Shown piece by piece: positions 9,152 to 13,311 of a stretch of 64,000 nt of DNA. Source of the stretch: an uncultured Clostridia bacterium (GTDB lineage Bacteria; Bacillota; Clostridia; Christensenellales; UBA1750). The first letter of the stretch is position 1, and the number at the start of each line of letters is the position of its first letter. The notes under the pieces are model-generated. The model worked only from the letters and a program-made list of their open reading frames with translations, searched no databases and was not told where the DNA came from. The stretch spans positions 1 to 64,000 of the forward strand of contig CAJFMX010000012.1 in the NCBI GenBank assembly GCA_904393115.1, in the 5' to 3' direction. Both the position numbers and the translations under genes were made by a program.

Positions 9152-9559
9152 TCAGCCGCGCTGCTCCCGGAAGACCAGGAGCTTGTTGCCCACGAAGTTG
9201 ACCGCCATGGACCCCACGACCGAGATGGCCTTGCCGATGTAGCGGTTCATCTGCAACCGCTCCTGCGTCAGCACCAGGATCCCCGTCGAGACCGCCAGCG
9301 CCGCCAGGTTCACCGCCAGGAAGCACGCGAGCTGGCGGCGCGTCATCGGCTCCCGCTGGGCAAACGTCCAGCGCTTGTTCAGCACCAGGCTGTTGCACAG
9401 GCCCAGGCTGTAGCCGATGATCTGCGCCAGAACGTAGTTTTCCGCAAAGAAGGGGATGAACAGCAGGAGCGTATAGGAAAGGTAGTCCACCAGGGTGTTG
9501 ATTACGCCCACCAGGCCGAACTTTACGGCCTGCACAAAGAGCGCCTTGAGCTTTTCCAC
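9152..9559 (-). CDS. GtrA family membrane protein
   Basis: Small four-helix membrane protein of the GtrA/DPMS3 family. Members are thought to help flip or present polyprenyl-linked sugars to glycosyltransferases. The 135 residues contain four hydrophobic segments, the typical opening (VKFGLVGVINTLVDY) and the closing basic FVGNKLLVF motif. The start is a GTG at 9559 with GGGAGG eight bases upstream. It follows the giant GT-C glycosyltransferase gene by 17 bases, which fits a lipid-linked sugar supply role for that enzyme. Confidence 0.9.
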   Translation of the reverse strand: MEKLKALFVQAVKFGLVGVINTLVDYLSYTLLLFIPFFAENYVLAQIIGYSLGLCNSLVLNKRWTFAQREPMTRRQLACFLAVNLAALAVSTGILVLTQERLQMNRYIGKAISVVGSMAVNFVGNKLLVFREQRG

Positions 9560-9576: not shown

Positions 9577-12500
9577 TCAGTACAGCGTCCACGAGGGCAG
9601 CCAGTTCAGGAGCGACGCGTGCAGCTCCGTCATGGGCACGCCCGTGAGCACCGGGTAGAACAGCAGGAACAGCGCCAGCACCACGCCCATGAAGACGAAC
9701 ATGGCCGTCCTTGCCCACCGCTTCTTGTCGTACAGGTCCTCGAAGAACAGCACCGTGCACAGGACGATGAAGGGCACGGACGCAAAGTAGTGGTACACGA
9801 ACGTCACGCGCGGCACGAGCACCCAGGGCAGGTAGTTGGCGCAGAACCCGATCAGCAGCCACCACAGGCGCGGGTCGCGCTTGCCGTAGCCCCGGACCGC
9901 GCGCACCGCCACCCAGATCAGGCACGCAAGGCCTGCCCACCACACCGCCGGGCTGCCCAGGGCCGAGATGGACGAGACCCACCCCACCGGCATGGAGTCG
10001 GAGACATAGTACCAGATGTTGCGGATGTCCAGCGGCCACTGCCACCACGGCGACTCAAAGGGATGGCTGTCGAACACGCCCTTGTGGTAGTTGAACATGT
10101 GCAGCTGGTAGTTCCAGACCTCCTTGAGGCCGTGGTGCGGCGCGTCGATGCGCAGGAACTGATAGTAGGAGCCGATGTAGATGGCCAGCGGGATGATCCC
10201 GAAGAACACCACGCAGGCGAGGATGGTCTTGACCGCCTTGCCTTTAAAGACCGCGGCGATGTGCTCGCAGGTTTCGCGGCGCTCGGCGGAAAGGTTGCCC
10301 GCCGCAAGGTCGCGCTTGGCCGCAAGATACTCCTGCACCCGCGTGCCGAAGATCCAGAAGAACAGCACCGCAAGGCCCGCGGCCGCGTAGATGCCGATCC
10401 ACTTGCTCGCCATGCCAAGGCCCATGAAGAACCCGGACAGCGCCAGGGGCACGAAGGTCTTCCAGAGCTTGTCGTGGTAGAAGCTCATGTACGCGTAGCG
10501 CAGCAGGAACGCAAAGCTCAGGATGATGAAGAGCACCGGGTAGGAATCGATCGTGCCCAGGCGCGTCTGCGCAAGGTGCATGAAGTCGAACGTCATCAGG
10601 AACGTCCCAAAGAAGGCGAACAGGGGCCTGCGGAACAGCGTCTTGCACAGCAGGTACATCGCCGGCACCATGAGCACGCCCGCGAGCGTCCCCGCAAAGC
10701 GCCAGCCGAACGGCGTCATGCCAAAGGCCGCGATGGACCAGGAGATGAACACCTTGCCCAGCGGCGGGTGCGTGTTCTCGTACCACTCCATGTTGTGGAG
10801 CTGCTCGTAGGCGGTGCGGCCGTGGTAGACCTCGTCAAAGTACATGCTGTTCCTATAGGAGATCTCCGCCGGCACGATGGACTGCTCGTCGGCGAGGGCC
10901 TCGGCCGTGCAGGAGGCGATGGGCAGAATCGTCCCATCCTCCCCGAAGAGCGCGACCTCAAAGAGCTTGATCTCGTCCTTGGTCACCGTAAGGCGCACAT
11001 AGCGCGCGTCCTCCTCCAGCGCCACGGAGTGCCACTTGAACATGTCGTGCACGCCCACGCTCTGCTCTACCGCGCCGGACCAGTTCGCGCCGTCTGTGCT
11101 GAACTCCACCGTGAAGTCGCCGTAGGGGATCTCCCCGTAATAGCGGAACTCCGTCAGGCGCTCTTCCTGCCCCAGGTCGAGGACCGCGCTGTCGCCCGCT
11201 TCGCCCGTCCAGAGCGTCTGCGGCGCGGTCATGTCCCCGAGCTGGTAGAACGCCAGCACCGCGTACACGAGCGTCAGCGCGCCCATGAGCAGCCAGTCCA
11301 CGCGGCCCATGCGCAGGGAGGCCCGGTCCCCCGTGCCCGCGGCGTCCGGCAGGCGCGGCCCGACGACCTGGCGCCTGCACGGCGGCAGGCCGTCGTCCGT
11401 GGAGAGACGCTTGCCGCCGAAGCACAGGTCCGCAGCGGTGAGGAGCAGGCAGGCCAGCAGCGCGAGGTTCACCACCGCGACCACCGTGCCCAGCGCCTGG
11501 TTTTCCGCAAGGACGTGCTCGTTCTGCAGGACGATGTAGATGTTCACGGCGTTTGTCGCGCTAAAGCCCGCAAAGATCCCGTACAGCCGCCTGTCCGCGT
11601 AGAGCACGGCCGCCAGCAGCAGCAGCGCGAGCGCCGGGAACATGTACCGCTCGTGCATGCGCACGCCGAGGCAGAACGCGCCCGCCAGGATCAGCGCCGC
11701 GCAGAGGGGAATGGCGCGCCGGTCGCGGCTCTTGAAGAAGAACACGAGGCCCACAACGACGCTGGCCAGCAGGCCGACCGTCCCCCAGACCGCGTAGGGC
11801 AGGCCCAGGAGCGCCGCGCCCTGGTCCACCCAGTTCGCGCCCGCGGCAAAGAAGAAGTTCAGGGCGTTGACCGTGGCATACGGGTAGGAGGAGAGCGTGG
11901 AGAGGTACTTCTCCACGAGGAAGGCCGGCTCCTGGCGCACGAGGAAGGGCAGCGAGATCGCCGCGATCACGCCAAGGCACGCCGCAACGCCGGCAAGGAG
12001 CCGCTTTGCGCCGCGCCTGGGTTCCTCCAGGATCTCCAGCGCATAGCCGAAGAGCGGGATCGTGCCCAGCATCAGCGCCTGGGGCTTGACCGCCACCGCG
12101 ACGCCGTAGAGGATCGCCGCGCGCAGCGTCTTCTCCTGCAGGAAGGCGTCCACCACCAGCAGGATCAGCAGGACCAGCACCGCGTCCATCTGCCCCCACA
12201 TGGCGCTGTCCAGAATCGCCGCGGGCATGCAGGCATAGGCCGCGCCCGCCAGCAGCGCCCACTTGGGCTTGCCGGCGCGCAGCGCGATGCGATAGAGCAA
12301 GTACGCCGCCGCAAGGTCGCAGGCGATGGCCGGGAGCTTGAGCAGCACCAGGTACGGCGCGGTGTTCGCCGTAAGGCCCAGCAGATTGGCCACGAGCGCC
12401 TGCAGGCCCAGAACGTAGAGGTAGCCGGGCGGATAGTCGCAGAAGCCCTGCGCGTAGAAGTCCGCAGGCCCGACCTGCGCGAGCGTCTGTCCCCAGCTCG

Positions 12501-13311
12501 TAAAGCAGTTGATGTCCACCTCGTAGCCCGGGTTCACGGCCGCAAGGAAGAGGCGCAGCGCGCCCGCCGCCGCGAGGATCGCGCCAAAGAGACGCCCCGC
12601 GCGCGCTTTTTCGATCTCCACGCCGCGCAGGCGGTAGACAAAGGCGCAGACCAGCAGCGCAAACGCCGCCGCGACGAAGGTCTGCATCGGAATCCAGTCC
12701 GCGCCCTCCGTCTCGTCCGAGGCGGCGCTCACGGGCGCATCCTGCAGGCTCTGCACCGTCACGCCCGCGGGCACCTCGTCCACGGCCTCGACCACGACGT
12801 CGTCAAACCAGGCCGAGCCCACGTTCTCCTCGCCGTAGAAGCCCACGCGCAGGGCCACGGTGATCTCTCCCTGGAAGAAGCCGGTCTTTCCATACAATTC
12901 GACCGGCACCCACTGCCCGTCCGTGTCCGCATAGTCCTGCGACACGGCAAGGCTCCCGGAGACGGAGAGGTTGCCGCCCGTGCGCTCGGGGTCGCCGCCC
13001 TCCGCCTTCATGCGCGCGGAGATCCGGTAAGTCGTGTTGCCCCGGACGGCGACCGTCTGCTCCAGCCGCGCGTCGTTTTCCGAAAAGTTTTGCAGGCGCA
13101 CGCAGCGGTTTCCGTCCACTTCCTCCGTCCAATAGGTGGAGACGGTCTCGTCCTGCGTCCAGGCCGCATAGGTCCAGCCCACGGGCAGGCCGCTCTCGTC
13201 CCATTGGGAAAAGTCGCCGTTTTGCACCAGGTTTTCCGCAGCCTGCGCGCCGAGCGGCAGCGCCAGCGCCAGCAGCAGGAGCAGGCAGCAGATCCAGATC
13301 TTTCGTCTCAT
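9577..13311 (-). CDS. Giant PMT-like glycosyltransferase with two GT-C modules and a discoidin domain
   Basis: Membrane glycosyltransferase predicted to use polyprenyl-phosphate sugar donors at the outer face of the membrane. The 1244 residues read as: signal peptide (1-24); a carbohydrate-binding-like beta domain (about 25-185, starting AENLVQNGDFSQW); a first multi-helix GT-C module (about 210-640) with the acidic YEVDINCF (Asp266) and FCDYPPGYLY; an F5/8-type C (discoidin-like) domain (about 690-795); and a second PMT-type module (about 810-1244) with the classic MYFDEVYHG (Asp826, Glu827) and ENTHPPLGK. The two catalytic modules in one chain are unusual. SD GAGG lies upstream of the ATG at 13311. 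It is followed by gtrA, and yraN is 13 bases upstream. Substrate unknown; protein O-glycosylation or wall polymer decoration are both possible. Confidence 0.9.
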   Translation of the reverse strand: MRRKIWICCLLLLLALALPLGAQAAENLVQNGDFSQWDESGLPVGWTYAAWTQDETVSTYWTEEVDGNRCVRLQNFSENDARLEQTVAVRGNTTYRISARMKAEGGDPERTGGNLSVSGSLAVSQDYADTDGQWVPVELYGKTGFFQGEITVALRVGFYGEENVGSAWFDDVVVEAVDEVPAGVTVQSLQDAPVSAASDETEGADWIPMQTFVAAAFALLVCAFVYRLRGVEIEKARAGRLFGAILAAAGALRLFLAAVNPGYEVDINCFTSWGQTLAQVGPADFYAQGFCDYPPGYLYVLGLQALVANLLGLTANTAPYLVLLKLPAIACDLAAAYLLYRIALRAGKPKWALLAGAAYACMPAAILDSAMWGQMDAVLVLLILLVVDAFLQEKTLRAAILYGVAVAVKPQALMLGTIPLFGYALEILEEPRRGAKRLLAGVAACLGVIAAISLPFLVRQEPAFLVEKYLSTLSSYPYATVNALNFFFAAGANWVDQGAALLGLPYAVWGTVGLLASVVVGLVFFFKSRDRRAIPLCAALILAGAFCLGVRMHERYMFPALALLLLAAVLYADRRLYGIFAGFSATNAVNIYIVLQNEHVLAENQALGTVVAVVNLALLACLLLTAADLCFGGKRLSTDDGLPPCRRQVVGPRLPDAAGTGDRASLRMGRVDWLLMGALTLVYAVLAFYQLGDMTAPQTLWTGEAGDSAVLDLGQEERLTEFRYYGEIPYGDFTVEFSTDGANWSGAVEQSVGVHDMFKWHSVALEEDARYVRLTVTKDEIKLFEVALFGEDGTILPIASCTAEALADEQSIVPAEISYRNSMYFDEVYHGRTAYEQLHNMEWYENTHPPLGKVFISWSIAAFGMTPFGWRFAGTLAGVLMVPAMYLLCKTLFRRPLFAFFGTFLMTFDFMHLAQTRLGTIDSYPVLFIILSFAFLLRYAYMSFYHDKLWKTFVPLALSGFFMGLGMASKWIGIYAAAGLAVLFFWIFGTRVQEYLAAKRDLAAGNLSAERRETCEHIAAVFKGKAVKTILACVVFFGIIPLAIYIGSYYQFLRIDAPHHGLKEVWNYQLHMFNYHKGVFDSHPFESPWWQWPLDIRNIWYYVSDSMPVGWVSSISALGSPAVWWAGLACLIWVAVRAVRGYGKRDPRLWWLLIGFCANYLPWVLVPRVTFVYHYFASVPFIVLCTVLFFEDLYDKKRWARTAMFVFMGVVLALFLLFYPVLTGVPMTELHASLLNWLPSWTLY

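Follow-up and report, generated by a model that had tools for sequence, protein, structure and literature searches.

The window analyzed here, 64,000 nucleotides of contig CAJFMX010000012.1 (positions 1 to 64,000; GenBank assembly GCA_904393115.1) from an uncultured Clostridia bacterium of the order Christensenellales, contains on its minus strand one open reading frame (ORF; 9577-13311, 1244 aa plus stop codon) that joins two complete GT-C glycosyltransferase modules in a single chain. Such a two-module protein had been proposed in an earlier note made from the sequence of the window, and the ORF, its Pfam matches and its AlphaFold2 (AF2) folds confirm it. As that note described, the gene is followed by gtrA (minus strand, 9152-9559, start codon approximate), which encodes a putative flippase of lipid-linked sugar and matches PF04138 with 95 bits. 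The insertion into a housekeeping gene order between yraN and comM was also read correctly, in that the order rnhB-yraN-X-comM-dprA-topA, where X is the slot occupied by the fusion, is kept across the Christensenellales.

Domain architecture of the fused protein

The chain begins with a signal peptide (residues 1-25, 13237-13311, read from the sequence) and a domain resembling a carbohydrate-binding module (CBM; residues 26-180, 12772-13236), both of which had been anticipated. AF2 models this domain as a beta-sandwich, for which the best PDB folds identified using Foldseek were CBM16, CBM4, CBM61 and a hyaluronan-binding module; the Pfam CBM_4_9 match (residues 27-110) was below the cut-off, and a sequence search of PDB with this domain returned nothing beyond a weak hyaluronate-lyase match (E 0.13). 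The AF2 model of residues 206-1244, built from 56 sequences, has a predicted local distance difference test score (pLDDT) of 91.5 and a predicted template-modeling score (pTM) of 0.73, and the relative orientation of the modules in it is not secure. This model places an anchor helix at residues 207-227 (12631-12693), ahead of the first module.

Module 1 (residues 235-633, 11413-12609) is a GT-C module of the ALG6/ALG3/PIG-M type. Using VIA-align with the AF2 model, it superposes on yeast ALG6 with Z 27.7 and a root-mean-square deviation (rmsd) of 3.2 over 387 residues, followed by ALG3 (Z 27.4), GPI mannosyltransferase I (25.0), PIG-U (21.5) and PimE (20.2). In a profile search, GPI mannosyltransferase 1 was matched with an E of 7e-11 and ALG6 weakly, with an E of 0.08, and in the profile alignment with ALG6 the DYPP motif of module 1 (residues 292-295, 12427-12438) falls on DYPP, and the HER of its HERY motif (residues 553-556, 11644-11655) falls on HEK. 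None of the Pfam families tested (GT87, Alg6_Alg8, PIG-U and ALG3) was matched above its cut-off, with GT87 reaching 24.7 bits against 25 (residues 293-546) and PIG-U 22.5 against 24.5, and the module fits no single glycosyltransferase family; GT87 was matched by 32 of 41 homologues at E up to 0.01. Module 1 shares its fold and the DYPP and HE-(K/R) motifs with ALG6, ALG3, GPI mannosyltransferase I and PimE, but differs from this group in sequence (~11-13% identity) and in being fused to a PMT module. The predicted catalytic acid/base is D266 (12514-12516), located in the YEVDINCF stretch (residues 264-271) that had been singled out from the sequence, and further conserved motifs are WGQMD (residues 372-376, 12184-12198) and KPQ (residues 409-411, 12079-12087). 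The roles assigned to these residues are those that we take their counterparts in ALG6 to have.

The second module, also described as PMT-type before this analysis, matches Pfam PMT (52.5 bits, residues 815-1047) and PMT_4TMC (95.1 bits, residues 1062-1241), both above cut-off, and superposes on Chaetomium Pmt4 with Z 36.7 and rmsd 2.6 over 425 residues and on yeast Pmt1 with Z 35.8. It opens with the helix TM1 (residues 670-688, 11248-11304) and, after an inserted domain, continues over residues 815-1244 (9580-10869). The FDEVYH motif (residues 825-830, 10822-10839), present as earlier reported and containing the predicted catalytic D826/E827, and the HPPLGK motif (residues 848-853, 10753-10770) align, FDE (825-827) with the DE motif in loop 1 and HPPLGK with the HPP motif, with those of Pmt1/2/4. 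Against the NCBIfam equivalog model for bacterial Pmt (NF058602) the module scored 55.7 bits, where the cut-off is 800, and we therefore class it as a PMT-family module and not as that equivalog.

The inserted domain is an F5/8C (CBM32-like) domain (residues 699-790, 10942-11217), which is above the Pfam cut-off if its segment is scanned alone and has strands at residues 701-789 in the AF2 model. Its presence had been recognized, but it does not lie between the modules as was then thought; since it sits after the TM1 helix and before FDEVYH, it occupies the PMT module's first extracellular loop. In eukaryotic PMTs it is loop 4 that holds an accessory domain, MIR, which bacterial PMTs reportedly lack (PMC12331936). 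Module 2 shares the fold and the DE and HPP motifs with eukaryotic Pmt1/2/4, but differs from them in having no MIR domain, in its F5/8C domain in loop 1, and in its fusion to a second GT-C. As one module matches the folds of the ALG6 group and the other those of PMT, the two are different kinds of GT-C, and we rejected a tandem duplication of a single GT-C because they match different families.

Conservation, distribution and natural splits

Conservation was analyzed in a set of 56 diverse fused homologues. In module 1, residues D266, W273, Y286, D292-Y-P-P295, W372, Q374, K409, Q411 and H553-E-R-Y556 are invariant in 56/56, as are F825-D-E827, H848-P-P850, K853, R917, H1076, R1168, Y1173 and H1174 in module 2. 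Mean column identity was 0.59 in the module-2 core, 0.50 in module 1, 0.42 in the F5/8C insert and 0.24 in the linker between the modules (residues 634-664, 11320-11412). We consider it highly probable that both sites are catalytic.

Every one of the 11 family genomes has the fusion at full length, which, together with the invariance of the active-site residues, argues that it did not arise by chance. Matches of any kind were obtained from 53 of 61 close relatives and, at the level of the order, from 128 of 198 genomes, with many of the relatives being metagenome-assembled genomes, and 72 of the 78 loci returned from GTDB contigs pass as a single ORF spanning both modules. The fusion carriers among these GTDB loci are Christensenellales, ~40 Paenibacillus species, Lachnospiraceae (where the fusions are without the N-terminal CBM) and one Methanocellaceae archaeon. 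A survey of 299 genomes across the phylum identified 18 with a match, of which three are fused and one, a Paenibacillus-like genome, has a split pair, the rest being halves or two-gene versions. The fusion is old, recurrent and widespread, not local, and we rejected a strain-limited or chimeric ORF on the counts from the family, the order and GTDB. The archaeal copy (L108:7968-12012), on a Methanocellaceae contig with flanks that read as archaeal by eye (ArgRS, aRF1), was probably acquired from Firmicutes.

Across the order, the yraN-comM slot contains the fused gene, two adjacent genes, the PMT half only, or the N-half only. The earlier note had held that its reading would fail if the halves occurred as separate enzymes and the fusion were recent and limited to this strain; split and two-gene loci do occur, and none of the family, order, GTDB and phylum surveys shows a recent, strain-limited fusion. 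Natural splits fall at the cytoplasmic linker: L104 and L130 have ATGA-type overlaps, in L023 and L028 the first reading frame ends in TAG and a new start comes after it, and in a further split locus (L122:8617-11502) the second (PMT) gene encodes a signal peptide of its own together with another CBM-like domain. All motifs of both sites are retained in the split pairs, and because the Paenibacillus pairs nest among fused proteins in the tree, the split there is secondary. For the homologues split at a TAG (G031, G057) we rejected recoding of the stop codon, since the TAG is succeeded by a sequence resembling a ribosome site and by a new ATG.

N-half-only genes occupy the yraN-comM slot in Christensenellales-type genomes (L118-L121, L126-L129, L131-L149 and L152). 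Their proteins comprise the CBM and the membrane part, and in most of them the signal peptide is lipobox-like. Both DYPP and HERY are missing from 28/28 of these proteins (sets of 10 and 18), and what remains is limited to scattered matches to WGQ or K(P/L)Q. In the tree they group into a single clade whose base is occupied by a fused protein (support 98/92), and from their sequences they are a candidate pseudoenzyme family. Retention of the module-1 motifs is linked to the presence of the PMT half, as expected if the acceptor of module 1 is the product of the PMT module.

Partner genes, candidate acceptors and related systems

The gtrA gene adjoins the fusion gene in 11 of 11 family genomes, and the genome of the window encodes on contig C7 a GT2 glycosyltransferase (C7:99276-100196) that is 54% identical to the GT2 of the Paenibacillus operon, where the order is fusion-GT2-GtrA-sortase. 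Across all taxa, GT2, GtrA and sortase clusters were found in 40, 38 and 23 loci, respectively; in the archaeal locus, the genes next to the fusion are instead those for a GT2 and an ArnF-like flippase. In the set of 61 relatives, 35 of the 36 that have the PMT half also encode GT2 (E up to 1e-40), compared with 2 of the 25 that lack this half, the latter including 0 of 15 N-half-only genomes. The nearest NCBIfam model to this GT2 is that of PgfS, and its closest match in PDB is GtrB; Dol-P-Man synthase ranks far lower, so that mannose is not to be assumed, and the sugar need not be mannose. The PgfS equivalog NF047588 is the best family for the Paenibacillus GT2, at 293 bits and below its cut-off of 500. 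The partner set fits a lipid-linked sugar pathway. Elsewhere in the genome of the window, a single ORF (L116:812-1906, G000 contig 1) encodes what looks like a GT2 domain and, after it, a GtrA domain, and reads as a second lipid-linked sugar system. In two Lachnospiraceae loci (L090:11050-13536 and L097) a protein of ~820 aa, YfhO-like by eye, is encoded after the fusion gene, with a GT2 after it in L090.

Candidate acceptors were identified in seven Paenibacillus-group loci (L051, L055, L058, L062, L079, L081 and L082), where gtrA is followed by the gene for a secreted PT/SP-repeat protein with a C-terminus made up of LPKTGE, a hydrophobic stretch and basic residues. A sortase gene is next in five of these seven (L051, L055, L062, L081 and L082), and four of the seven loci are broken by assembly gaps within the repeats. 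Coordinates of the mucin-like repeat protein are L051:12566-14191, L062:13414-14715 and L079:13539-14954.

Two characterized systems resemble this arrangement. Cbes_1864, a GT39 enzyme of Caldicellulosiruptor bescii, is needed for glycosylating secreted cellulases with Thr/Pro linkers and is also required for growth on crystalline cellulose (PMC6151902). Like module 2, it is a PMT-family protein whose loop 1 contains a carbohydrate-binding domain (here F5/8C, between TM1 and FDE). Compared by length and context, a module-2 ORF in locus L162 (566 codons plus stop, 1701 bp) has the length of Cbes_1864 and neighbors a multi-domain cellulase of GH9/GH5 type that has TP linkers, with a module-1 homologue directly downstream of the module-2 ORF. 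Two-gene pairs near GH9-type cellulases with TP linkers are located at L162:3846-10201, L163:3763-11620 and L161:1955-7012; by context, L162 and L163 are very likely Caldicellulosiruptor, and L161 is another cellulolytic genome. The Caldicellulosiruptor-type pair is encoded by two separate genes, whereas the protein in the window is a single chain with an extra N-terminal CBM-like domain.

In S. mutans, PgfS, PgfM1 and PgfM2 act in sequence on surface adhesins, where loss of PgfM1 abolishes modification and loss of PgfM2 leaves an intermediate (PMC5856776). The likeness, by description, lies in a PgfS-like GT2 and in two membrane proteins acting sequentially on LPXTG-type surface proteins, but the Pgf components (PgfS, PgfM1, PgfE and PgfM2) are encoded by separate genes, and PgfM1 is of PMT-2 type. 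By analogy, both the Cbes_1864 and Pgf systems fit a two-enzyme logic of start and extension, which would here be fused. Three-component GtrB-GtrA-GT-C systems are also alike, in that a GT2 makes the polyprenyl-P-sugar, GtrA flips it and the GT-C transfers it (PMC8035078, PMC11127046), and an adjacent GtrA and a GT2 of the polyprenyl-P-sugar synthase type are both present in this genome; they differ in that here one polypeptide has two GT-C catalytic modules, each of another type, and the acceptor is probably a protein. Our search of the open-licence literature found no description of the fusion, nor of a GT-C polypeptide that combines two catalytic modules differing in type.

Proposed mechanism and its alternatives

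PMT-type modules start protein O-glycans, and enzymes of the ALG6/ALG3/PIG-M/PimE type extend glycans or glycolipids. We consider it reasonably likely that the fusion is a single-chain, two-site extracytoplasmic O-glycosyltransferase, supplied by GT2 and GtrA, in which module 2 starts and module 1 extends. The PgfS/GtrB-type GT2 would charge polyprenyl phosphate with a sugar, and GtrA would move the charged lipid-linked sugar outward; the PMT module, using D826/E827, would then place an initial sugar on Ser/Thr residues of an exported protein, and the ALG6-like module, using D266, would add a second sugar onto the first, drawing on a donor of the same class. Both carbohydrate-binding domains, the N-terminal one and that in the PMT catalytic loop, would probably hold the acceptor or the nascent glycan. 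Addition of two sugars in succession, as suggested in the earlier note, is the best-supported reading of two intact GT-C folds, invariant signature residues, the association with GT2 and GtrA, and the linkage of module-1 motifs to the PMT half; the activity itself, the order of addition, the protein acceptor, the shared donor, the roles of the binding domains and transfer outside the membrane are what we infer.

Several points weigh against this reading. Since the N-half-only proteins form one clade, the loss of the module-1 motifs was probably one event, not 28. Stand-alone module 1 with intact motifs occurs near GT2 and GtrA (L153:5696-11270, L154, L155, L156 and L157), indicating that this module can work without this PMT and pair with other starters. 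In the genome of the window GT2 is not adjacent to the fusion gene, and the Fisher p of 2e-13 for co-occurrence of GT2 and the PMT half is not phylogeny-corrected. A repeat-type acceptor was not found in the same genome, where searches for PF00746 and for an (S/T)P x5 tract gave no match. Enzymatic activity is predicted from sequence and model. Alongside the stand-alone module 1 in L153-L157 we observed a different membrane protein of ~700 aa, GT-C-like by eye.

The alternative that survives best, although we regard it as unlikely, is that both sites are active on different acceptors, with module 2 acting on proteins and module 1 on a wall polymer or glycolipid, and with the fusion sharing donor supply and location. 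It would agree with the fold relatives of module 1, which act on lipid-linked glycans or glycolipids, and with the stand-alone active-type module 1 that is found alongside GT2, GtrA and a large membrane protein of another kind, but not readily with the loss of module-1 motifs that accompanies loss of the PMT half, nor with the fused or coupled arrangement being retained in distant lineages. A non-catalytic module 1, serving as the receptor or platform for the PMT module that had earlier been considered, is improbable here, as D266, DYPP, WGQ, KPQ and HERY are invariant in all 56 fused homologues; it may hold for the PMT-less sister clade, which keeps the CBM and the module-1 membrane part without the catalytic motifs, and PIG-U, a non-catalytic subunit of the GPI transamidase, is among the fold matches of module 1. 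We give just as little weight to a teichoic-acid-like or other wall polymer as the target instead of proteins, as in known Gram-positive three-component systems: module 2 exceeds the cut-offs for PMT and PMT_4TMC and has the Pmt4 fold, LPKTG repeat proteins are present in seven operons, and Cbes_1864 acts on proteins (PMC6151902), even though GT2-GtrA-GT-C is the standard set for glycosylation of lipoteichoic acid, wall teichoic acid and wall polysaccharide (PMC8035078) and this genome lacks a repeat-type acceptor. That the initial sugar is put onto protein by module 1 as well as module 2, as in a one-chain version of the two-subunit yeast Pmt1-Pmt2 complex (6p25, among the fold matches), is very improbable, since module 1 is not a PMT, with its best folds being ALG6, ALG3, GPI mannosyltransferase I and PimE and with no PMT_4TMC found in it by Pfam scan.

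For the two-site O-glycosyltransferase, we tentatively propose, at close to even odds, that the PMT and ALG6-like GT-C modules hand a nascent O-glycan between their sites via the binding domains, and that this arrangement is ancient in Firmicutes, was passed to an archaeon, and in Paenibacillus is coupled to sortase anchoring of mucin-like wall proteins. If true, it would provide an accessible model, with cultured Paenibacillus and natural splits, for the start and extension of lipid-linked O-glycosylation. It would name the mucin-like LPKTG proteins as candidate acceptors, and suggests that the GT-C gene beside the cellulase-glycosylating GT39 may be the second enzyme of that pathway.

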